Shown here: positions 1 to 62,278 of the stretch, one piece after another | Numbering within the stretch: position 1 is the first letter of the stretch | Layout of the letters: the number at the start of each line of letters is the position of its first letter | From: Salinibacter sp. 10B | GTDB lineage: Bacteria; Bacteroidota; Rhodothermia; Rhodothermales; Salinibacteraceae | Assembly: GCF_002954405.1 (NCBI RefSeq) | Contig: NZ_MQWC01000004.1 | Span: 594,065-658,064, forward strand | DNA: 64,000 nucleotides | Direction: 5' to 3' | Translations under genes and position numbers: made by a program | The notes under the pieces: generated by a model | Database searches by the model: none | Told to the model about the DNA's origin: nothing | Seen by the model: the letters and a program-made list of their open reading frames with translations, nothing else

Positions 1-548
1 CGGTGGTGAAGAATGTCGCCCACCTGTGCAAGATCCCCGGAGGCCTCTTTTACCCCGACCACCGACGGAACCTCATCGGCCAAGTGGAGCACCGTTTCGG
101 CCTCAATATTAAAGCTGGTCCGAGACGGAACGTTGTAGAGAATGATGGGCGCATCGGCAGCATCGGCAATCGCTTCGACGTGAGCAATGAAGCCGGACTG
201 CGACGGCTTGTTGTAATACGGTCCCACCACGAGAAGACCATCGGCCCCCGCCTCCACGGCAGCCGTGGAGTAGGCAACACTTTTCTCCGTATTATTGGTA
301 CCAGTCCCGACAATCACCGGCACACGCCCGTCCGCCGTGTTGACAGCGATGTCTACCAGTCGGCGACGCTCAGCTTTACTTACCGTTGGATTCTCACCGG
401 TGGTACCCAATACCACAAGGCCCGAGACGCCCTTGTCAATCTGACGCTCAATGAGCGTGCGGAACGCGGCCTCATCTACGTCATCCTCGTCCGTAAATGG
501 CGTAACGAGCGCCGGGGCCACGCCCCGAAAGAGAAGATCGGTTGCCAT
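1..548 (-). CDS. dapA: 4-hydroxy-tetrahydrodipicolinate synthase (3' part outside window)
   Basis: Condenses pyruvate with aspartate semialdehyde, the first step of the DAP/lysine branch, in the cytoplasm. The visible 182 residues begin MATDLLFRGV and carry the (beta/alpha)8 DHDPS signatures: GTTGENPT near residue 48, the catalytic tyrosine in LYNVPSRT (Tyr139) and the Schiff-base lysine in GVKEASGD (Lys167). The gene runs off the left edge, so about 110 C-terminal residues are missing. It lies upstream of dapB on the same strand order of the pathway but downstream in transcription (dapB is transcribed first, 53 bp apart), so the two probably form an operon. No odd features are seen. Confidence 0.95.
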   Translation of the reverse strand, partial: MATDLLFRGVAPALVTPFTDEDDVDEAAFRTLIERQIDKGVSGLVVLGTTGENPTVSKAERRRLVDIAVNTADGRVPVIVGTGTNNTEKSVAYSTAAVEAGADGLLVVGPYYNKPSQSGFIAHVEAIADAADAPIILYNVPSRTSFNIEAETVLHLADEVPSVVGVKEASGDLAQVGDILHH

Positions 549-38222: not shown

Positions 38223-38720
38223 CTATGGGTTGTCCGGTGAGAAGTCCTGAGCGTAGGGATTCGGCACGTCTTCGAGGTCCACCTTCACGAACCCGTGCTC
38301 CGTGGCCGTGTGGCACTGATTGCAGGCACGCTCCAGGTCACTCAGGGCTCCGTCCACAGCCGTCCAATCTCGGTTTTCCAGCGCCCTTTCCAGCGCCTCC
38401 ACACTCGGCACCAACATTTTCTCCGTCAGCTCTGCGACGGCATGGCCTTCGTAGGTCGGCGCCTCGTCCTGAATAGTCTCGATGGACTCCTCCATCTCGT
38501 GAAGATAGAATCCCGCCAGCGTGGCATTTTGGGCGTCCATCGCAAGAGTCGTCTTGTGCGTCCAGCGCTGGAGACGAGACATGTGCAGCGCCAACTCCGC
38601 GTGCTCCGACGCGTCTACGGTCTCCGCGACGGCGTCCGTTTCTCCATGTGTGCAGCCGCCCACAGCGCCCCCCAAAAGAAGGATAGGAATCGCAAAGACG
38701 AGGAAGAGTCGGACATTCAT
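38223..38720 (-). CDS. cytochrome c'-like lipoprotein
   Basis: A 165-residue lipoprotein (MNVRLFLVFAIPILLLGG, lipid Cys23) of predominantly helical sequence. One heme c motif CNQCH is near the C-terminus (Cys133, Cys136, His137), as in four-helix-bundle cytochromes c'. Such proteins often bind NO or CO. It lies 35 bp upstream of pheA, but no functional link to that gene is seen. A second cytochrome c'-like gene lies at 52607-53089. Confidence 0.8.
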   Translation of the reverse strand: MNVRLFLVFAIPILLLGGAVGGCTHGETDAVAETVDASEHAELALHMSRLQRWTHKTTLAMDAQNATLAGFYLHEMEESIETIQDEAPTYEGHAVAELTEKMLVPSVEALERALENRDWTAVDGALSDLERACNQCHTATEHGFVKVDLEDVPNPYAQDFSPDNP

Positions 38721-38800
38721 CGCGACTGTAGATCCCGAAATAATGGCACTTCTTCGAACAACTGCGCACTCCCACGAACCGAACCTCCCCACGTTCCGCT

Positions 38801-41115: not shown

Positions 41116-41280
41116 CGCTCCGATCCGGAATGGAACCAGTCCTACCTACCCCCAACAATATTGAAGAAAAAATTAAATACAAAATACTCCGAAAACTTTT
41201 ATTCTGTCCCCTGTATATCCTCTCGCATTTGTATTTACACGGTGCTCCTCACTTCGATAGACTCGTGGCTCATCTTCATC

Positions 41281-41290
41281 GGAGGTGATC
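41281..41290 (+). promoter_or_regulatory. strong Shine-Dalgarno of the 53-aa subunit
   Basis: GGAGGTGATC is nearly perfect complement of the 16S 3' end and lies 5 bp before the GTG start at 41295. Such strong sites are rare in this window. It supports the GTG start and the reality of the small gene. Confidence 0.8.
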
Positions 41291-41294
41291 CGAC

Positions 41295-41456
41295 GTGCCC
41301 GACTCCTCGTCCGATCAGGATTCCGATCCTCCTCCCTGGCCCCAACGGCTGTACGATAGTATTTGGCTGATCGCGGGGACTGCGATCGTGTTTTGGGTAT
41401 TATCCTACGTGATTTGGGGCGTCATCGACCTTCTCACACTCCCTGGAGGTGGTTGA
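41295..41456 (+). CDS. 53-aa single-TM small subunit of the heme-copper enzyme
   Basis: A tiny gene, GTG start, with product MPDSSSDQDSDPPPWPQRLY followed by a transmembrane helix of about 24 residues (IWLIAGTAIVFWVLSYVIWG) and a short tail ending PGGG. The strong SD is 5 bp upstream, and the stop is one base before the ATG of subunit II. In B-type (ba3) oxidases a comparable one-helix polypeptide (subunit IIa) precedes or accompanies subunits II and I. By position and topology this is probably the equivalent. It has no conserved ligands visible. Confidence 0.8.
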   Translation: MPDSSSDQDSDPPPWPQRLYDSIWLIAGTAIVFWVLSYVIWGVIDLLTLPGGG

Positions 41457-41457
41457 C

Positions 41458-42009
41458 ATGGCTTCACCAATCGAACCGCCCACGGGACACTGGTGGAATC
41501 ATCCGGTTGCGGACACCGAAAAGACGTGGCTCTGGATCTGTCTCTTGACGGCCCTCATCCTCTTCGGCTGGATGGTGGGATGGTCCCATCTTGGAGAGCA
41601 GAATCCGACGGGCCATACCTACCGCGTGAGCGCCGAAGCGTATCGCCAGAAAGTGTCCAGCTTTACCGACCAGGCCGTCGACACAGAGCAGGGACTCCGT
41701 CCTGCGGGTACGGATGTCTACGTGGCAGCCTATCAGTGGGGATGGGACGGCCTTCCCGTCGTGCTGGAAGCCGGGAAAGAGTACCAGGTCCACCTCGGAA
41801 GCTACGACGTGCAGCACGGCTTCTCGGTGCGCGATCAGGAGGACCTCATCCGACAGTTCAACCTACAGATTCTCCCCGGGTACGAGTGGGTCATTCCGAT
41901 GACCTTCGACGAGCCGGGCACCTACCGCCTCATCTGTAACGAATTCTGCGGGCTTGGACACCGCGTCATGCAAAACAAAATCATCGTGGTGGAGGGTGAT
42001 TCGTCATGA
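41458..42009 (+). CDS. CuA-containing subunit II of B-type heme-copper enzyme
   Basis: A 183-residue membrane-anchored electron-entry subunit. One N-terminal TM helix (about 24-42) is followed by a cupredoxin domain. All CuA ligands are present: His120 (DVQHGFS), Cys160, Glu162 and Cys164 (CNEFC), His168 and Met171. It would therefore receive electrons from a soluble cytochrome c or cupredoxin. The start overlaps the previous stop region (GGAGGT 8 bp upstream), and the stop overlaps the ATG of subunit I by four bases, so the subunits are translationally coupled. Confidence 0.92.
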   Translation: MASPIEPPTGHWWNHPVADTEKTWLWICLLTALILFGWMVGWSHLGEQNPTGHTYRVSAEAYRQKVSSFTDQAVDTEQGLRPAGTDVYVAAYQWGWDGLPVVLEAGKEYQVHLGSYDVQHGFSVRDQEDLIRQFNLQILPGYEWVIPMTFDEPGTYRLICNEFCGLGHRVMQNKIIVVEGDSS

Positions 42010-43715
42010 ACCTCGCACTGCTCAGTAACCCGTACGACGAACAGGGCTTCCGGACGTGCTCCGTTACAGGCCTCAATGTCCACCGGTCGGCGGAGCGGCC
42101 CACGAAGCTGTTCGTCCTTTCTGCCGTCCTGTCGATGGTCCTCGGCGGGATTGCGGCGCTTTTTGTCGCCCTGACGCGCTGGGAGGCCGTGGGCGTGCTT
42201 TCCGCCCCGGCGTTCTATAAGTGGCTCAGTATCCACGCGTGGAGCCTGCTCATCTTCTGGATGGTGTTCATGGAAATCGGGATCCTGTACGTGGGCGGGC
42301 CGATGGTGCTGGGCCGTCGCCTACCGGTTCCCCACCTCGCCAAAGCGGGCTGGGGGCTCATGGTCGGATCCGCCGGCCTCATTCTCTACTCCATCTGGAT
42401 CAGTACGCCCCCCAACTATCAGCCGCTGCTCACCTCCTATGCCCCCCTGAAGTCGCACCCTCTCTTCTACGTCGGGGCCATTCTCTTCATCCTCGGGACC
42501 ATTGTCGCAGCCCTTCCCTTCTTCGTCGCCATCTGGCAGGAAAAAAGCACGCATCCCCACAAAACCCTGCCGTTGGTCACCTTTGGTGCATTCATGACCT
42601 CCATCATCGCGCTGGAGTCGCTGATTGGGGGTCTCATTACCTACGTGCCCACCTTCTTTTGGCGCATCGGCTGGGTAGAGCACATTGACGCCGCCTGGTA
42701 CCGACAGATGTACTGGACCATCGGCCACGGCACGCAGCAGATCAACCTCGTGGCGATGATCACGATCTGGTACTTCATGACGTACGTGGCGGGGGGAGCC
42801 GAAGTCGTAAGTGAGAAGGTGTCGCGCACGGCGTTCATCCTCTACGTCTTCTTCATCAACATGGGGGCGGCGCATCACCTGCTCTCCGATCCCGCCGTCT
42901 CGTCGCAGTGGCGCATGTGGAACTGCTCGTACGCCACCTACGGCGCGGTCCTGGCAAGTTTAATTCATGCCTTTGCCCTGCCCGCCGGGCTGGAGGTCGG
43001 CCGCCGGAAGAAGGGGCTGGGCGATGGCTGGTTCGGCTGGCTGAAAAGCGCTCCGTGGTCCGACCCCGGTTTTTCCGCCACTGCGTTCAGCATCATTCTG
43101 TTCGGATTTCTGGGCGGTACCACCGGCGTCCTTATGGGACAAATGCAGCTCAATACGCTGCGCCACAATACGTTGGCTGTGCCCGGCCACTTTCACGGCA
43201 CTGTGGCGGTTGGCACCACACTTGCCTTCATGGGCTTCCTGTTCTACGGCATCAAGCTGCTGTTCCGCCGCGACTGGATCGCGAAGGGACTGGCCCGCGC
43301 GCAACCGTTTTTCTATGCTGGCGCCATGAGCATAGCGGTGATGGCCATGATGTCGGTTGGCATCGTCTACGGTCTTCCCCGCCGACACCCCTCTACGACC
43401 AGCATCCCCGGCACGGACTTTAGCTTCGCCGCGGCCTCTCCCCTCCTCGCAGCAATGGGAATTATGGCAATTCTCGCCATCCTGGCCGGCGCTGCTTTTG
43501 TAATCGTGGCCGTTGGGTCTCTCCTCTTCGGCGAAGAACTCTCCCCCGCCGACATGCTGCCGAATTATTCGACCCTCCCGGAAACCGACCAGCCCACGCA
43601 TGCCATTTCGATGCGGGGCACCGCGGCCCTCACGGGCTTCTTCCTCCTGGTCCTCGGGGCCCTGTATGGGCTCGACTGGATGTGGCTCGCCCACCTGTGG
43701 GAATTCGGATTGTAG
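42006..43715 (+). CDS. eNOR-like heme-copper subunit I (probable nitric oxide reductase)
   Basis: A 569-residue, roughly 13-TM catalytic subunit. Ligands visible: low-spin heme His77 (SIHAWSL) and His397; high-spin heme His395 (GHFHG); CuB His241, His290 and His291 (GAAHH). In ordinary A- and B-type oxidases His241 is followed four residues later by the Tyr that cross-links to it (GHPxVY). Here the sequence is GHGTQQ, with Gln at that place. O2 reduction needs this Tyr; its absence in a B-like enzyme is characteristic of NO reductases such as eNOR, known from Rhodothermus. The neighbours (Rrf2, RIC, nirK region) agree. It could still be an unusual oxidase; activity is inferred. Confidence 0.85.
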   Translation: MNLALLSNPYDEQGFRTCSVTGLNVHRSAERPTKLFVLSAVLSMVLGGIAALFVALTRWEAVGVLSAPAFYKWLSIHAWSLLIFWMVFMEIGILYVGGPMVLGRRLPVPHLAKAGWGLMVGSAGLILYSIWISTPPNYQPLLTSYAPLKSHPLFYVGAILFILGTIVAALPFFVAIWQEKSTHPHKTLPLVTFGAFMTSIIALESLIGGLITYVPTFFWRIGWVEHIDAAWYRQMYWTIGHGTQQINLVAMITIWYFMTYVAGGAEVVSEKVSRTAFILYVFFINMGAAHHLLSDPAVSSQWRMWNCSYATYGAVLASLIHAFALPAGLEVGRRKKGLGDGWFGWLKSAPWSDPGFSATAFSIILFGFLGGTTGVLMGQMQLNTLRHNTLAVPGHFHGTVAVGTTLAFMGFLFYGIKLLFRRDWIAKGLARAQPFFYAGAMSIAVMAMMSVGIVYGLPRRHPSTTSIPGTDFSFAAASPLLAAMGIMAILAILAGAAFVIVAVGSLLFGEELSPADMLPNYSTLPETDQPTHAISMRGTAALTGFFLLVLGALYGLDWMWLAHLWEFGL

Positions 43716-43720
43716 TTCTG

Positions 43721-43782
43721 CGGGATTCGTGAAGCGGAAACGGTCGGAATCTCTCTTCGCAGTTCGCGTCTCACGAATCCCG
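43721..43782 (+). repeat. inverted repeat after subunit I stop
   Basis: Perfect 12-bp arms CGGGATTCGTGA (43721-43732) and TCACGAATCCCG (43771-43782) surround 38 nt. It begins 5 bp after the subunit I stop codon and before the 40-aa gene. There is no T-run. It may attenuate or process the transcript so that less of the downstream gene is made, or protect the upstream mRNA. Confidence 0.6.
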
Positions 43783-43846
43783 GGTCTCCATTCACGGCTT
43801 CAAGCTCGACAAGGCATTCCCTTCATAAATCCGGAGCCTCTTTCCA

Positions 43847-43969
43847 ATGAAAAAACCAGATGCCTCTGAAGACCCAGGCTTCCTCCCTGCCATGCTGCTG
43901 ATTGGCTTTCTGTTCGTACTGTCCGTGGCTGGCGTCGTGCACTCGCTTATCGCAACCTTCGCGGGATGA
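43847..43969 (+). CDS. 40-aa single-TM protein downstream of the NO reductase
   Basis: The ATG-initiated product MKKPDASEDPGFLPAMLLIG has one predicted TM helix (residues 14-36, LPAMLLIGFLFVLSVAGVV) with a charged N-terminus and ends IATFAG. The gene lies 131 bp after subunit I, beyond the inverted repeat, and 80 bp before the Rrf2 gene. Its small size resembles accessory polypeptides of cbb3/ba3 enzymes (CcoQ- or IIa-like), but no homology can be claimed by eye. It has no obvious SD. Confidence 0.65.
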   Translation: MKKPDASEDPGFLPAMLLIGFLFVLSVAGVVHSLIATFAG

Positions 43970-44010
43970 GACTCCATTCATGAGCCGGGAACTCCTGCTC
44001 CAATAGTAAT

Positions 44011-44028
44011 TAGGACAGAGAGGTACGA
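44011..44028 (+). promoter_or_regulatory. candidate NO-regulator operator before the Rrf2 gene
   Basis: TAGGAC-AGAGAG-GTACGA matches the site before nirK (58338-58355) at 13 of 18 positions, and the following AATA is also shared. It ends 21 bp before the Rrf2 start codon, which suits autoregulation. The inverted-repeat symmetry (GGAC/GTMC with 6-bp spacer) fits a dimeric winged-helix regulator. This is inferred from sequence only. Confidence 0.45.
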
Positions 44029-44049
44029 AATAAATGGCGATTCCACCAT

Positions 44050-44466
44050 ATGCTCTCCAAAAGCTGCGAATACGGACTCCGGGCGTCGCTTTACCTTGCT
44101 TCTCTGGAGCAGGAGGGATACGTGTCAATTGGCACGATCAGTGAGGAGTTGGACATTTCGTTCCCGTTCCTCACAAAGATCTTCCAGAAGCTCAACGACG
44201 CCGGTCTCCTTGACTCTCGTCGAGGGCCGAACGGGGGCGTTGCCCTCACTCTCCCCGCTGAGGAGATCACCCTCTACGAGATTGTCGTCGCGATTGACGG
44301 CGATGATCTGTTCGAAGAATGTGTGCTGGGCCTTCCCGGATGTGGCGAGGCAGAACCCTGCCCTCTCCACGAGCAGTGGGCGGACGAGCGGGATCGCGTG
44401 GAAAACATGTTTCAGAACACGACCCTCGCTGAACTGCCTGAGGTCCGACTTGCGGCCTTCGATTAA
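44050..44466 (+). CDS. Rrf2 family Fe-S transcriptional regulator (NsrR-like), copy 1
   Basis: A 138-residue winged-helix repressor or activator. The HTH region covers about 2-70 (MLSKSCEYGLRASLYLA, SEELDISFPFLTKIFQKL). The wing RRGPNGGVAL follows. The cluster-binding cysteine triad is CVLGLPGCGEAEPC (C-x6-C-x5-C), the same as in the second Rrf2 protein of this window. Such proteins usually sense NO or redox state through a [4Fe-4S] or [2Fe-2S] cluster. Placement between the NO reductase genes and RIC suggests it controls both. Confidence 0.92.
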   Translation: MLSKSCEYGLRASLYLASLEQEGYVSIGTISEELDISFPFLTKIFQKLNDAGLLDSRRGPNGGVALTLPAEEITLYEIVVAIDGDDLFEECVLGLPGCGEAEPCPLHEQWADERDRVENMFQNTTLAELPEVRLAAFD

Positions 44467-44601: not shown

Positions 44602-45294
44602 ATGTCCCTTTCCGCTGACACCCCTGTTGCCGAACTCGTGACCGACCAGCCGGGTCGTGCCCGCATTTTCGAAGAATTAGGCATCGATTACTGTTGCGGG
44701 GGCGACCACTCTCTGGCCGAGGCCTGTCGGAAAAATGACCTCGACCCTGAGACTGTGGTCCGCATGTTGAATGCCACCGTGCAGTCTGGGACCTCCCCCT
44801 CAAAGGACTGGACCAAAGCATCTCTTGGCTCCCTGATGGACCATATCGTCGAGACGCACCACGACTATCTACGGAGCGAGTTGCCCCGACTGGAGCAGTT
44901 GCTCTCTCGGGTGGTGCAGGCACATGGGACCGAGGTGCCCTGGCTGGACCCAACGCTGGAGGTTTTTCAGACGCTCAAGCTGGATCTCGAGACGCACATG
45001 ATGAGCGAGGAGGAACGGGTCTTTCCCTCCATCCGCGCCCTGACGACAGATGGGGATGCTCCCGAAACCGGCCTGGATGAGAATGGGATCGACAAGATGA
45101 TTCGTGAACACGATGATGCCGGAACGGCTCTGGAGCGTCTTCGCGACCTCACGAACGGGTTTACCCCTCCCGCGGGGGCGTGCCCAAAATTCCGGGCCGC
45201 ACTGGACGGGCTCGACGAACTGGAAACGGATATGCACCAACACGTCCACAAGGAAAACAACATCCTCTTCCCTCGCGCCCGCGCTCTGGCGTGA
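44602..45294 (+). CDS. ytfE: RIC/YtfE-type di-iron Fe-S cluster repair protein
   Basis: A 230-residue protein with the N-terminal ScdA_N domain (LVTDQPGRARIFEELGIDYCCGGDHSL, the Cys-Cys pair at about 31-32) and a C-terminal hemerythrin-like di-iron domain. The ligands are in DHIVETHHDYL, LETHMMSEEERVFP, IREHDDAG and HQHVHKENNILFP. It repairs Fe-S clusters damaged by NO and may reduce NO at the di-iron site. Its gene is a frequent member of NsrR regulons, which fits the Rrf2 gene 135 bp upstream. It has its own AT-rich upstream region. Confidence 0.93.
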   Translation: MSLSADTPVAELVTDQPGRARIFEELGIDYCCGGDHSLAEACRKNDLDPETVVRMLNATVQSGTSPSKDWTKASLGSLMDHIVETHHDYLRSELPRLEQLLSRVVQAHGTEVPWLDPTLEVFQTLKLDLETHMMSEEERVFPSIRALTTDGDAPETGLDENGIDKMIREHDDAGTALERLRDLTNGFTPPAGACPKFRAALDGLDELETDMHQHVHKENNILFPRARALA

Positions 45295-45420: not shown

Positions 45421-46809
45421 ATGCAGACGGACCTTTCAATTGATCTCGACCTCATCCGCCGCTACAACCAACCGGGCCCGCGGTACACGAGCTACCCGAC
45501 AGCCCCGCACTTCACCGACGAGTACGGCACGGAGGCCTTCCGCCGGGACCTCTCAGAGGCCTCCTCGAACACGCCACTCTCCCTGTACCTGCACCTTCCC
45601 TTTTGTCAGTCGCTGTGCTACTACTGCGGCTGTCACATGAAGGTGACACAGAATCCGGAGACGATCGAAACGTACCTTACGGCCCTCAAGCAAGAGATTG
45701 ACCAATTGGCGGCCGCGGTGGACACGTCTCGTCCCGTCGTGCAAATGCACTGGGGAGGCGGCACCCCCACGTATCTGTCCCCCGACCAAATCCGGGACCT
45801 CGGCGCACATCTCCGGCATCGATTTTCGTTTGCGTCAGACGCGGAGATCAGTCTGGAAGCGGACCCACGAACAGTAACGGCGGAGCGCATGGCAGCGGCC
45901 GCCTCGGTGGGCTTCAACCGAGTCAGCTTCGGGGTGCAGGACGTGAACCGAGAGGTGCAAGAGGCCATCAACCGGGTACAACCGATCGCGATGGTTGAAG
46001 AGGCCGTGGGGTGGGCACGGGAGTACGACTATAACGGAGTAAATGTCGATCTCATCTACGGACTCCCTCATCAGACGCTCGACCGTTTCGACCGCACGCT
46101 CGACGTGACGCAGCGTCTGGCGCCGGACCGCATCGCCGTCTACAGCTATGCTCACGTCCCGTCCATCAAAAACCACCAGCGAGTCATCGATCAGGAGGCG
46201 CTGCCGTCGCCCGACGAAAAGTTGCGTCTCTTCGAACGGGCTCTGGAGCGCCTCACCGGAAGCCAAAATGGGCGCGCCTACCGATTTATCGGCATGGACC
46301 ACTTCGCGCGCCCCGATGATCCGCTGTCGGTGGCGCAGGACGAGGGCACCCTCCACCGCAACTTTCAGGGCTACTCCACGCGTGCCGGCGCCGAAATTCT
46401 GGCGCTGGGCATCTCCGGCATCAGTCAACTGAGCGGAGCCTACGCACAAAATGTGAAGGCCTTTCCGGCGTACTACGATCGGATCGAGAGCGACCGCCTC
46501 GGAACCTACCGGGGATACCGGCTCACTTCCGAGGACCGACTGCGCCGACACGTAATCATGCAGCTTATGTGTCACTTCCACCTGCAAAAGGCCGACATTG
46601 AAGAACGCTTTGCGGTTGACTTCGATCGTCGATTCGCCTCGGCTCTTGAATGGCTGAAACCAATGGAGGGAGACGGGCTCGTGACGCTTACCCCCGAGGC
46701 CATTCACGTGCGCCCAGAAGGCCGACTTCTCATCCGCAACATTGCGATGGCCTTCGATGCCTACTGGAGAACCGACGAGGAGCAGCCCGTCCACGCGCAA
46801 ACCGTTTGA
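45421..46809 (+). CDS. hemN: oxygen-independent coproporphyrinogen III oxidase
   Basis: A radical-SAM enzyme that converts coproporphyrinogen III to protoporphyrinogen IX without O2. The 462-residue protein carries HLPFCQSLCYYCGCH (Cys62, Cys66, Cys69 bind the [4Fe-4S]), GGGTPTYLSPDQI and the HemN C-terminal domain (AEILALGISGISQLSG). Length and the YNQPGPRYTSYPTAP start are typical of true HemN rather than HemW. Grouping with NO respiration genes suggests heme supply under low oxygen. It follows ytfE by 126 bp. Confidence 0.95.
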   Translation: MQTDLSIDLDLIRRYNQPGPRYTSYPTAPHFTDEYGTEAFRRDLSEASSNTPLSLYLHLPFCQSLCYYCGCHMKVTQNPETIETYLTALKQEIDQLAAAVDTSRPVVQMHWGGGTPTYLSPDQIRDLGAHLRHRFSFASDAEISLEADPRTVTAERMAAAASVGFNRVSFGVQDVNREVQEAINRVQPIAMVEEAVGWAREYDYNGVNVDLIYGLPHQTLDRFDRTLDVTQRLAPDRIAVYSYAHVPSIKNHQRVIDQEALPSPDEKLRLFERALERLTGSQNGRAYRFIGMDHFARPDDPLSVAQDEGTLHRNFQGYSTRAGAEILALGISGISQLSGAYAQNVKAFPAYYDRIESDRLGTYRGYRLTSEDRLRRHVIMQLMCHFHLQKADIEERFAVDFDRRFASALEWLKPMEGDGLVTLTPEAIHVRPEGRLLIRNIAMAFDAYWRTDEEQPVHAQTV

Positions 46810-56200: not shown

Positions 56201-56656
56201 CTACGTCAACTCGTCACCCGCAATTGTGCTGGTGAGCCGGTAGTTTTGCTCTTTCGTCTCCTGTGCAGTCTCGGCCAGAGTGGCCCGTCGAAAAAGGAGT
56301 TCCAACTGATCCCGTTGCTGGGCCCAGGACTGATGAAGTGGACAGGGCTCTTGCTCCCCGCATCCTGGCAAGCCCAGTACGCACTCCGTAAACAACTCCT
56401 CCCCATCCAGCGCAACCACCACTTCATAAAGCGTTATGGTCGTGGGATCGCGCGCCAGGGCTACTCCGCCGCTCGGCCCACGCCGGGACGTCGTCAACTC
56501 TGACTCATTTAGGGATTGAAAAATCTTGCCGAGAAAGGCGAACGAGATATCGAGTCGCTTGCTGATCTCGCGGAGCGAAACGTACCCTTCTCCCTCTTCG
56601 GCAGAAAGGTACAGGAGCGCGCGAAGTCCATACTCGCAGCTATTTGAGAGAAGCAT
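56201..56656 (-). CDS. Rrf2 family Fe-S transcriptional regulator (NsrR-like), copy 2
   Basis: A 151-residue paralogue of the regulator at 44050-44466: MLLSNSCEYGLRALLYLS, SKRLDISFAFLGKIFQSL, RRGPSGGVAL and the same Cys triad CVLGLPGCGEQEPC (C-x6-C-x5-C). The C-terminal tail (about 125-151) differs. It follows the membrane protein gene on the same strand and is close to nirK, so it probably controls the nitrite reductase locus. The start was set by alignment with copy 1; an upstream frame was rejected. Confidence 0.92.
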   Translation of the reverse strand: MLLSNSCEYGLRALLYLSAEEGEGYVSLREISKRLDISFAFLGKIFQSLNESELTTSRRGPSGGVALARDPTTITLYEVVVALDGEELFTECVLGLPGCGEQEPCPLHQSWAQQRDQLELLFRRATLAETAQETKEQNYRLTSTIAGDELT

Positions 56657-56761
56657 CAGGTCAAAAACGAAAAGGGATGAACGAAGAATACTGCTCTTTC
56701 TACCAGGAACCCGTCGTGTCCGGCTGTCCTCTCGGCGCGCTCTCTCCCACAATCTCGACCC

Positions 56762-58114
56762 TCATTCTCGCACCGATCCTGAATCATGAGGACAGGACTC
56801 GTTTGATGCAAACGACCCTCCGAGTGCATGACGCTCGCCAATAAATTCCGACTCCCGGAGCCGTGCGGAGCCGGCGAAGGGATGCCGTCGGAAAAGCATC
56901 CAGCCTGCGACCATCACCAGCCCAAGGGACGCCCACGCCGCCACCGTAAACGCCATCGTCCCCCCAGGCCCCCAGGGTGTCAATGGAATAAGCGTGCACA
57001 GCACTCCTCCGACTGCCCCATACAGAACCGCAAGGTCCGTCGTGTTCCGCCCTCCCCACACCTCATGCGCCGCTACGACGAGCGTGAGCGTGAGAAATCC
57101 GAGCAGCATCAAGTGCAGGTACAAAATCCGTAATCCGTGGATTTCCCCCAACCAAAGCCCCGGCACGAGACTTCCCACCAGCTGAGCACCGGCCTTCAGC
57201 AGTACGCACGCGAGCGGTACTCCCCAGAGCCAGCGCCGTCCCTTGGCGGAAAGACAATTCACGAGTCGGATGCCCATCGCAAACAGGCCAAGGGCAACCA
57301 GCGTCCCCCCGATTCGCCCGGCCACCTCCAGCTCGAGCGATAGGCCCGACGCCGGGAGACTGAGCAGAAACGTTAAGGGAAGTCCAGCCACCACCAGCCC
57401 CACACTGCTCGCGCTCGGCGCCGACGGCGACGGCTCCAATATGGCGAAGGCAACCCCCAGTCCCCCGAGCACAAACCACCCTTCCGAAAACAGGTCCAGA
57501 AACACGTGAGTCAGTCCTTGAGCAATCAGTGGGCTATGGACGCCAAGCAAAGGTAGCAAGGAGAGACTCCACGCCCCTAAAGTGGAAAGAACGAGAGCCC
57601 CGACTGCCACGTCCCAGAGCCGGAGTGCTCCGCGTCGGGGATGTGGGTATGTGACGACAATATACAACCCCACAAAGCCATACCATCCGATAATGTTGAG
57701 CCCAGCCCCCACCACGGCAATGGGCATCTGTACGGATCCAATCTGTACCACTGAGTACCCAAAGAGGAGAAACGGCGGATAGGCCAGCACTGCCGCCGCA
57801 AGCGTGCTTCCTGCAATCCATCGAAATGCCCGCCCCCACCCAGCGGTCAAGGAGGCCGGCAAGCACCGCCAAATAAGCACCATGAGGGCTGGCGTGCCCC
57901 ACCCAAAGTACATGAGATGAGAATGGGCATGACGAACGTTTTCCAACTCCAGCGGCCCAGTGCCCCCATACACCATTCCGAAACGGAAGACGGCACCGGT
58001 GGCTCCTGCCAACACAAATAACAGCAGTGCTCCCCACCATACCCACGCTCCTTTCGGCGATGGGCCAACCGGCGTTTGGCTGCGCTGAGGCAAGGTGGAA
58101 ACGGACGACGGCAT
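56762..58114 (-). CDS. uncharacterised polytopic membrane protein with histidine motifs, nirK-linked
   Basis: A 450-residue protein with about 12 predicted TM helices. I do not recognise a named family. His-rich TM motifs are [12 protein letters not shown] (about 60), [15 protein letters not shown] (about 200) and [17 protein letters not shown] (about 330), reminiscent of heme-copper oxidase subunit I-like or NnrS-like proteins that bind heme. It lacks the HH/HxH ligand set of true oxidases. Its gene is divergent from nirK (327-bp shared promoter region) and upstream of Rrf2 copy 2, so a role in nitrite/NO metabolism or NO sensing is likely by association. Confidence 0.8.
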
Positions 58115-58175
58115 GAGCTTCGGACAACTGATCGAACGGAATTCGGAAGCAATATACGGGCGCACCCTTCCCATT

Positions 58176-58193
58176 TCGGACCAAATAGTCTTC
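58176..58193 (+). promoter_or_regulatory. candidate NO-regulator operator, membrane-protein-proximal site
   Basis: TCGGAC-CAAATA-GTCTTC shares the left arm and spacer length with the site at 58338-58355, but has a degenerate right half. It lies 62 bp upstream of the start of the leftward membrane protein gene. Confidence 0.35.
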
Positions 58194-58337
58194 TTTTCAA
58201 AATATACACACTCCTCCGTCCCTCTCGATCTAAACGCTCTTTCTGGAGATCCTTGGGTCTCCTATCTCGCCCCGTGAGCGGGATTCGCACGTCCTCCCTC
58301 ATTTCTTCGCGTGTTCTCCCCGGACATCGCTTGTTTA

Positions 58338-58355
58338 TCGGACAAAAAAGTCCGA
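58338..58355 (+). promoter_or_regulatory. candidate NO-regulator operator before nirK
   Basis: TCGGAC-AAAAAA-GTCCGA is a perfect 6-bp inverted repeat with a 6-bp A-tract spacer, 86 bp upstream of the nirK start. A related site, including the flanking AATA, lies before Rrf2 copy 1. Binding by Rrf2 is inferred. Confidence 0.5.
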
Positions 58356-58441
58356 AATATAGAATGGCGGCCGACGAAGCCTGTCTTCTCCCCGGTTGCT
58401 CTCGTGTACGTCTACCGCCCTCACATCTACCGATTGTTGTT

Positions 58442-59641
58442 ATGACTTTTCGTCCCCTCCCTTTTTTGCTTCTCGCCGCCACCCTCATTCTTAGCACCCT
58501 GACCTGGACTGCCTGCACGCAGGGGACCGCCGATCCGGTCCCAGACGAAGCGGTCGCCGCCGCTGAGGCGTCGAAAGAGCCGGTTGAGCCGCGCGTTCGG
58601 GGCACCGTCAAACCCGCTACTGCCGACGACGCCCGGCTGCCTGACGTTACGCTTCCGCCCCTGCGCGGCACCGAAACTGCACCGCTGACCTTCGCCCCGG
58701 AAGTCCCGGCTCCCATTACCCGCTCGCATGCCTCTCGCGTGGTCGTCGACATGGAGGTGATTGAAGTCGTCAAGGAGTTGGCCGACGGCGTACAGTACAC
58801 TTTCTGGACGTTCGGCGGTGAAGCCCCTGGGCCCATGGTGCGCGTCCAAGAGGGCGACCTCGTGGAGTTTAATCTCCACAACCACCCCGACAACAAAGTG
58901 CCTCACAACATCGACCTGCACGCCGTGACCGGTACGGGCGGCGGTGCTGAAGCCTCCTTCGTGGTCCCCGGCAAGTCGGCTACGTTTGAGTTCCGCGCCA
59001 TCAAGCCCGGCCTCTACGTCTACCACTGTGCCACGGCCCCGGTTGGCCTCCACATCGCGAACGGCATGTACGGTCTCATCCTTGTGGAACCAAAAGAAGG
59101 CCTGCCTACCGTCGACCGTGAGTACTACGTAATGCAGAGCGAATTCTACACGCAGGGTGCGTTCAAAGAGAAAGGCATGCAGCCGTTCAGCATGGACAAA
59201 GCCCTGTCCGAGACGCCGGAGTACGTGGTCTTTAACGGTGGTGTCGGCGCGCTCACCAACGAGAATGCCCTGCAGGCCGCCGTCGGGGAAAACGTCCGCC
59301 TTTTCGTGGGCAACGCCGGTCCGAACCTCACGTCCAGCTTCCATGTGATCGGCGAGATGTTCGACAAGGTGTACGGCGAAGGCGGCACGGCCCTCGCGCA
59401 GGAAAACGTGCAAACGACCTCGATTCCCGCGGGCGGCTCTACGATTGTCGACTTCCAACTCGACGTGCCCGGTACCTACACGCTCGTCGACCACGCCATC
59501 TTCCGCGCCTTCAACAAGGGCGCGATCGGCATCCTGAAGGCCGTGGGCCCGGAAAACGAGGACCTTTTTTCTGAGCAGAAGAGCCTCACGGACTACCGCG
59601 GCGCAGACGCGGAGGCCACGAAGACGCCCGCCGGCGAGTAA
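58442..59641 (+). CDS. nirK: copper-containing nitrite reductase
   Basis: Reduces nitrite to NO in the periplasm. The 399-residue protein has a hydrophobic signal segment (8-24, with a Cys at 25 that could be lipidated) and two cupredoxin domains. Type 1 Cu ligands: His155, Cys196, His204, Met209. Type 2 ligands: His160, His195, His301. The catalytic Asp158 is in [27 protein letters not shown] is diagnostic. It is followed by nirV, SCO, cupredoxin and CopD-like genes on the same strand. The start ATG has no SD. Confidence 0.97.
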
Positions 59642-61801: not shown

Positions 61802-62278
61802 ATGACCTTTCGCCTCCTTCCCCTCCTTCTGTCTCTCTCCCTCCTCCTCATCGGCCTCACGGGCTGCGGCGGTGCTGAAGCAGAGCCCGATGGCGCTGCG
61901 GTCTCATCGATAACGATCACGCCCGTCGGCAATCAGATGGAATTTGAGCAGACCGAGTTCACCGTCACGGCCGGCTCTGAAATCACGCTCACGTTCAACA
62001 ACACCGCCACGAGCCCGGCGATGGAACACAACGTGCTTTTTCTCACCGACAACGAGGAGGCCACGATCAACCGTGTCGGGCAGGCCGCAATGGGCGCCGC
62101 CTCCAACGCGTACGTCCCTGAGGATGACGCCGTCCTCGCAGCCACGGACCTCGCCAAGCCGGGCGAAACCGTCACCCTGACGTTTACAGCTCCGAGCGAG
62201 CCCGGCGAGTACGCCTACATCTGCACGTTTCCCGGCCACTATGCCATGATGCAGGGCACGATGCGCGTGACGGAGTGA
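61802..62278 (+). CDS. azurin-like type 1 copper protein (lipoprotein)
   Basis: A 158-residue lipoprotein (LTGC, Cys22). The cupredoxin domain has all type 1 copper ligands: His76 (MEHNVLF), Cys141, His146 and Met150 (ICTFPGHYAMMQG), with Cys-to-His +5 and Cys-to-Met +9 spacing as in azurin and plastocyanin. It is a plausible electron donor to NirK and, by analogy, to the CuA subunit of the NO reductase. An independent terminator follows. Confidence 0.94.
   Translation: MTFRLLPLLLSLSLLLIGLTGCGGAEAEPDGAAVSSITITPVGNQMEFEQTEFTVTAGSEITLTFNNTATSPAMEHNVLFLTDNEEATINRVGQAAMGAASNAYVPEDDAVLAATDLAKPGETVTLTFTAPSEPGEYAYICTFPGHYAMMQGTMRVTE

Follow-up and report, generated by a model that had tools for sequence, protein, structure and literature searches.

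A CuA-containing, B-type-derived heme-copper enzyme of Salinibacter sp. 10B as a probable nitric oxide reductase of the eNOR family

Gene organization of the locus

The window analysed here is the whole stretch of 64,000 nucleotides taken from contig NZ_MQWC01000004.1 of Salinibacter sp. 10B. Two genes on its forward strand, overlapping by four bases, encode the cupredoxin subunit II and the catalytic subunit I of a heme-copper enzyme (Table 1). Subunit I matches PF00115 with 173.4 bits; subunit II scores 48.9 bits against the CoxB model TIGR02866, under the cut-off of 147.7. An enzyme of the eNOR family, to which these genes probably belong (see below), has been characterised from Rhodothermus marinus, and the family is said to have been described by Hemp and Gennis in 2008 and by Murali et al. 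in 2024.

A 53-aa open reading frame ends one base ahead of the subunit II start. Homologues of this frame were detected by tblastn just 5′ of subunit II in 45 of the 83 eNOR loci compared, and 22 of the 24 haloarchaeal loci show the same three-gene order as the window, so the frame probably encodes a genuine small membrane subunit or an assembly partner. The 40-aa hydrophobic frame 3′ of subunit I may be a chance open reading frame, and a tblastn search of 88 loci yielded no homologue of it. Recent import is not indicated by the base composition, the GC content being 0.615 for subunit I and 0.609 for the whole window.

Table 1. Features of the enzyme locus and of the surrounding denitrification genes in the window.
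Feature	Position	Strand	Evidence or remark
53-aa ORF, GTG start, one hydrophobic stretch	41295..41456	+	sequence; tblastn homologues
Probable eNOR subunit II, cupredoxin with CuA ligands, 183 aa, ATG 41458	41458..42009	+	ligands; TIGR02866
Probable eNOR subunit I, heme-copper catalytic, 569 aa, ATG 42006	42006..43715	+	PF00115, alignment, trees
Codons of H241-G-T-Q244-Q245-I-N247, with the CuB His and the Gln that replaces the cross-linked Tyr	42726..42746	+	
40-aa hydrophobic ORF 3′ of subunit I	43847..43969	+	translation only
Element ATTAGGACAGAGAGGTACGAAAT 5′ of the Rrf2 gene	44009..44031	+	single copy in window
Rrf2-family regulator, C-x6-C-x5-C	44050..44466	+	TIGR00738 109.4 bits, cut-off 73.3
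RIC (YtfE/ScdA), iron-sulfur cluster repair di-iron protein	44602..45294	+	TIGR03652 242.2 bits, cut-off 204.7
HemN, oxygen-independent coproporphyrinogen III oxidase	45421..46809	+	TIGR00538 585.2 bits, cut-off 324.95
Second Rrf2 regulator, same Cys motif, near nirK	56201..56752	-	TIGR00738 104.2 bits
Hydrophobic His-containing protein, 470 aa, between the second Rrf2 gene and nirK	56762..58174	-	
nirK, copper nitrite reductase, start codon unsettled, conserved domain 58694-59581	58076..59641	+	TIGR02376 363.2 bits, cut-off 296.3
Azurin-like cupredoxin, candidate electron donor	61802..62278	+	PF00127 57.3 bits, over cut-off

Metal ligands and the cross-link position

The initial annotation had described subunit I as keeping every ligand histidine but carrying Gln instead of Tyr four residues after the CuB ligand His241, and subunit II as retaining a complete CuA site. 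All three statements held when the ligand columns were mapped. In the alignment with Thermus thermophilus ba3 oxidase, H72, H233, H282/H283, H384 and H386 correspond to H77, H241, H290/H291, H395 and H397 of the window protein, and the cross-linked Y237 falls on Q245, within the motif GHGTQQ. The CuA ligands H120, C160, E162, C164, H168 and M171 are present in subunit II. The window enzyme further resembles ba3 in its fold, in the equivalents of Y248 and S309 and in E21 of subunit II, which we take to be the counterpart of ba3 E15; it differs from ba3 at the cross-link position and by the changes V236 to Q244, W239 to N247 and T312 to H321.

Tyrosine four residues after the first CuB histidine, which marks the B-type (ba3) oxygen reductases, is replaced by Q245 in the window protein. 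Three PF00115 proteins were identified in the genome: the window enzyme, an A-type oxidase (L118) and a ba3 oxidase (L002, motif GHAVVY), the last being 28% identical to the window subunit I. Both oxidases carry the tyrosine, and no second NO reductase was detected in this genome by PF00115.

Conservation among homologues

The alignment of subunit I comprised 123 rows, of which 89 have Gln at the cross-link column (88 without the duplicate L038, identical to L003) and 34 have Tyr; no other residue was seen there in the 123 rows, a set assembled without targeted sampling of sNOR- or gNOR-type proteins. The homologue scan kept the best 80 of 519 matches, so further Gln homologues exist; a locus with the gene in pieces (L144) was not aligned, and L033-L037, some of which repeat other loci, were left out of the counts over 83 loci. 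Q245 occurs in 88/88 rows of the Gln group and Tyr in 34/34 of the remaining aligned rows; although the group is defined by the letter at position 245, all 88 rows were recovered by overall similarity, and the pattern is not a chance outcome. The motif GHxxQQxN was likewise present in all 24 additional loci fetched by similarity.

Besides Q245, the residues E90, Q244, N247, Y256, S318 and H321 are found in all 88 Gln rows, and E90, Q244, N247 and H321 in none of the 34 Tyr rows. This set, E90/Q244/Q245/N247/H321, may already have been published by Murali et al. in 2024. The CuA ligands are kept in 83/83 Gln-type loci, with E162 in 82 and Asp in one, and E21 of subunit II is kept in all 82 loci covered. 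At S269, 35 of the 88 Gln rows have Asn. The window protein departs from 30 members of its clade (see below) at 18 positions that are near-invariant among them; for nine other members tested in the same way, the number ranged from 0 to 10.

In the eNOR of a Thermus thermophilus plasmid (L030, 5983-7668), one of the 88 Gln rows, H-F-K replaces H-F-H, which would make Lys the second ligand of the low-spin heme.

Family placement

The main tree was built by a quick method from 84 of the 123 rows (64 Gln, 20 Tyr), with window positions 241-247 excluded, and contains some long branches; two further trees were built from 33 and 36 chosen rows. Even with the motif columns excluded, the 64 Gln and 20 Tyr rows were separated by one branch (SH-aLRT 99). 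As anticipated from sequence features, the window protein grouped with Gln homologues from Rhodothermus, haloarchaea, Thermus and Ardenticatenaceae and outside the sampled Tyr-type oxygen reductases, rather than within O2-reducing B-type clades, and no row of the Gln group had a Tyr at the cross-link column. More precisely, it lies in a group of 31 rows (support 100) made up of seven Rhodothermota and 24 haloarchaeal sequences, while one further Rhodothermota row (L007) is placed elsewhere within the Gln group. The branch of the window protein is long (0.53-0.54 changes per column), and its position inside the clade is approximate.

Among the closest known systems are the eNORs of Rhodothermus and of haloarchaea. 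The Rhodothermus proteins share with the window enzyme the Gln at the cross-link position, the CuA subunit II encoded directly 5′ and the same invariant residues; two Rhodothermus sp. MAGs (L039 and L040, among the best 80 of 519 matches) and one genome (G042) reach 64-65% identity. The window differs from them by its long branch, its 18 unusual positions and the Rrf2-RIC-HemN genes alongside. Haloarchaeal eNORs (Natrinema, Halorubrum, Halobacterium and others) are 54-63% identical to the window protein, among the best 80 of 519 matches, and show the same signature, but they form a group of their own inside the shared clade, with support values of 98/98 in the 33-row tree and 96/98 in the 36-row tree. 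Since the haloarchaeal rows form one group and the Rhodothermota rows no clear single group, eNOR has likely been transferred, in one direction or the other, between haloarchaea and a bacterium. Across the whole clade, which unites halophiles and thermophiles, the 54-65% identity to the window protein (among the best 80 of 519) is also suggestive of cross-domain transfer.

Phmmer matches below E 1e-30 comprised ba3 chains and 7deg only, pointing to a B-type derivation and not to C-type enzymes or cNOR. An AlphaFold model of subunit I, made with 31 sequences (mean pLDDT 82.7, pTM 0.87), was closest to ba3 according to Foldseek, the first 21 PDB matches being ba3 or 7deg oxidase; VIA-align scored A-type and ba3 folds alike (Z 34.7 versus 34.3). 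Structures of cNOR and qNOR were absent from the 50 rows listed by each of the two programs, which excludes nothing.

The B-type architecture brought out by these searches would also suit an oxygen reductase that lost its Tyr and still reduces O2 with another residue as donor, such as Y256, the conserved equivalent of ba3 Y248. Heme-copper enzymes of one family overlap in their reactivity towards NO and O2, which adds to the appeal of this reading. We nevertheless regard it as very improbable, given that the genome already has two Tyr-bearing oxidases, that the Gln clade is separate and has its own invariant residue set, and that eNOR is reported in PMC11388526 to be biochemically characterised and to reduce NO under microoxic conditions.

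Assignment to another family of CuA-type NO reductases (bNOR/CuANOR, sNOR, gNOR or nNOR) has also to be weighed. Seven NOR classes serve as references in PMC12569097, and the trees built here cover only Gln-type homologues and Tyr-type oxygen reductases; a CuA or cupredoxin subunit and kinship with the B-type are, moreover, common to all the CuA-type families in the accounts of PMC11388526 and PMC8756737. The Bacillus azotoformans CuANOR/bNOR, for instance, is described in PMC11388526 as CuA-fed and B-type-derived, like the window enzyme. It is set apart by the Asn given for the key position in Table A4 of PMC8756737, which has N under sNOR and CuANor, D under gNOR and Q under eNOR; the same source names Gln as the eNOR marker, accompanied by a cupredoxin subunit II. 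Neither Asn, nor Asp, nor the Glu without CuA subunit of cNOR and qNOR fits the Gln and complete CuA site of the window. In addition, its nearest tree rows are Rhodothermus and haloarchaea, and the eNOR carriers named in PMC8756737 include Natronomonas/Halobacteria, Chloroflexi, Anaerolineales, Thermus and Rhodothermus profundi. Another family appears very improbable. The window enzyme combines the Gln at the cross-link column, a CuA cupredoxin subunit II gene immediately 5′ and a grouping with published carriers, and it is very probably a CuA-containing, B-type-derived NO reductase of the eNOR family, as had been proposed on the basis of the missing Tyr. It would accordingly be an additional member of a family already known, with the other NOR families probably separated from it by their published marker residues.

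Proposed mechanism

By its NOR-type active-site change, this enzyme of a salt-loving bacterium, which resembles a respiratory oxidase, probably turns NO into N2O. Electrons would pass from a periplasmic carrier, either the azurin-like protein or a c-type cytochrome, to CuA in subunit II, from there to the low-spin heme (H77/H397) and on to the heme-CuB site (H395; H241, H290, H291), where two NO would be reduced to N2O. The azurin-like candidate reaches 68.7 bits against the azurin model TIGR02695, under its cut-off of 105.1. The eNor of a haloalkaliphile is termed quinol-dependent in PMC13274419, which does not fit a CuA site and has been counted against our preferred explanation.

A site with Gln where oxidases have the cross-linked Tyr would have no additional donor of an electron and a proton for splitting O2. 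The residues invariant in the Gln group may stand in for the chemistry of the Tyr and influence how protons are delivered: Q244, Q245 and N247, perhaps with E90 and H321, could polarise NO and deliver protons. The K-type path of ba3 is partly kept, with E21 of subunit II, Y256, S269 and S318 retained and Y244, T312 and T315 changed to I252, H321 and A324, respectively. Such a remnant suggests that protons may be taken from the inside, in which case turnover could conserve energy.

Denitrification and NO-response context

The initial annotation had also pointed to Rrf2, RIC and NirK as flanking genes. Rrf2 and RIC are indeed direct neighbours of the eNOR genes, followed by HemN, but nirK lies about 15 kb downstream and is not adjacent. 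The nirK region also contains SCO/CusF genes, and a Sec-type NosZ is encoded elsewhere in the genome (821 bits, cut-off 625). On paper, a NirK-eNOR-NosZ denitrification route is completed in a halophilic Rhodothermota genome, in which eNOR would carry out the NO step between NirK and NosZ.

Similar associations have been described in other organisms: eNOR is reported in one operon with NirK in Ardenticatena (PMC4653789), and conversion of nitrite to N2O is described for a haloalkaliphile that has both NirK and a homologue of eNOR (PMC13274419). Among 59 relatives, NirK scored over the cut-off in five of the six genomes with eNOR and in eight of the 53 others (Fisher p 0.0014, kinship ignored); the eight NirK genomes without eNOR indicate that NirK does not require it. 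In the fetched flanks of 83 eNOR loci, many of them incomplete and compared with no background rate, a NirK-like gene was found in 10, Rrf2 in 15 and RIC in 3. Seven of the 24 haloarchaeal loci had a NirK-like gene in their flanks, that of L043 being a weak match of 108 aa.

The adjacent Rrf2-RIC-HemN cluster would serve the repair of NO damage and the supply of heme. It raises the question whether the enzyme acts with RIC and the Rrf2 regulator mainly to remove NO as a toxic compound, rather than respiring it. Two further loci lend themselves to this explanation: on a Thermus plasmid an Rrf2 gene and a DUF542 gene come directly after eNOR, and in a congeneric genome (G008, see below) eNOR is found near a second RIC gene. 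The scarcity of RIC at eNOR loci (3/83) and the NirK and NosZ of the same genome, which fit a respiratory chain, speak against it, and we consider detoxification in place of respiration unlikely, though by no means far-fetched. Respiration and detoxification are compatible with each other.

The Rrf2 protein beside eNOR is, judging from its cysteine motif and family match, likely an Fe-S based sensor of NO or redox state. Its identification as NsrR was rejected, as the best NsrR model scored 57 against a cut-off of 182. The element ATTAGGACAGAGAGGTACGAAAT also precedes the orthologous Rrf2 gene in G008; in the window it matches once, so that the search revealed no operator in common with the promoters of eNOR or nirK, and inverted repeats at the promoter regions were weak or absent. 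Both Rrf2 regulators of the window carry the motif C-x6-C-x5-C, one flanking the eNOR-RIC cluster and the other the nirK cluster.

The 470-aa protein encoded between the second Rrf2 gene and nirK matched nothing in Pfam, in NCBIfam or among PDB sequences. It is missing from the collinear G008 contig, and a 35% identical homologue adjoins eNOR in another genome (G030; L036, 10561-11496). In a genome of the same family (G015), the nirK match (L121) contains an internal TAG.

The window enzyme had been suspected to belong to a type easily annotated as cytochrome oxidase, and its relatives bear this out: the eNOR of the Thermus plasmid and the Thermomicrobium and Defluviimonas plasmid copies are labelled cbb3-type oxidase. 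With eNOR relatives annotated as cytochrome c oxidase, routine annotation would miss NO and N2O turnover in brines.

Distribution and swapped sites within the genus

The matches of a class-wide search formed two groups, one of 31 places (41-100% identity) spread over 30 of the 244 genomes and one of all other listed places, with at most 33% identity. The 24 additional loci with GHxxQQxN belong to the first group. Within the genus, two of 13 genomes carry eNOR, with a single copy detected in each, and in these two its genomic sites are swapped, which is a new observation of this work. A G008 contig is collinear with the window from before a histidine phosphatase gene through RIC, HemN and nirK; the eNOR site of the window comprises 2868 unaligned bases (41117-43984), and the equivalent site in G008 has 337 bases (L146, C303, 4671-5007) without eNOR. 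G008 has its eNOR genes on a different contig, close to a second RIC gene and an azurin gene, in a site of 3741 bases (L033, C195, 1384-5124), for which the genome of the window has about 219 bases (L148, 10354-10572) while keeping the neighbouring second RIC and azurin genes of the G008 type (85% and 80% identical).

Between the two genomes, eNOR subunit I is 65% and subunit II 58% identical, compared with 92% for ba3, 87% for Rrf2, 85% for HemN, 76% for RIC and for the histidine phosphatase, and 86% for the core domain of nirK (76% over a longer match). Because two flanking proteins have also diverged, namely an endonuclease-like protein (73%) and the product of ORF 38223-38792 (66%), the value for eNOR is low but not unique. 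A clade of the two eNORs was not rejected in either of two trees (AU p 0.058 and 0.108). The swapped sites are likely the outcome of separate acquisition or of reciprocal loss of two copies; a third option is that one copy moved and diverged fast.

G008 is a MAG of 330 contigs with 5% contamination, and its eNOR contig may possibly have been misbinned. This contig carries genes that are 80-85% identical to those of the window genome and in the same order, which speaks against misbinning. It can tentatively be proposed, with somewhat less than even confidence, that eNOR is a portable module in this genus, inserted next to RIC repair genes by separate transfers within a pool shared by Rhodothermota and haloarchaea, and that the long-branched copy in the window may have changed in its catalytic or proton properties. 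The genome pair with its swapped eNOR sites offers a natural case for tracing the movement of an enzyme between lineages. Two eNOR copies of equal score were also observed in opposite orientation on one contig of another genome (G218, C91:58985-60676 and 172895-174586), representing either a duplication or an assembly artefact.
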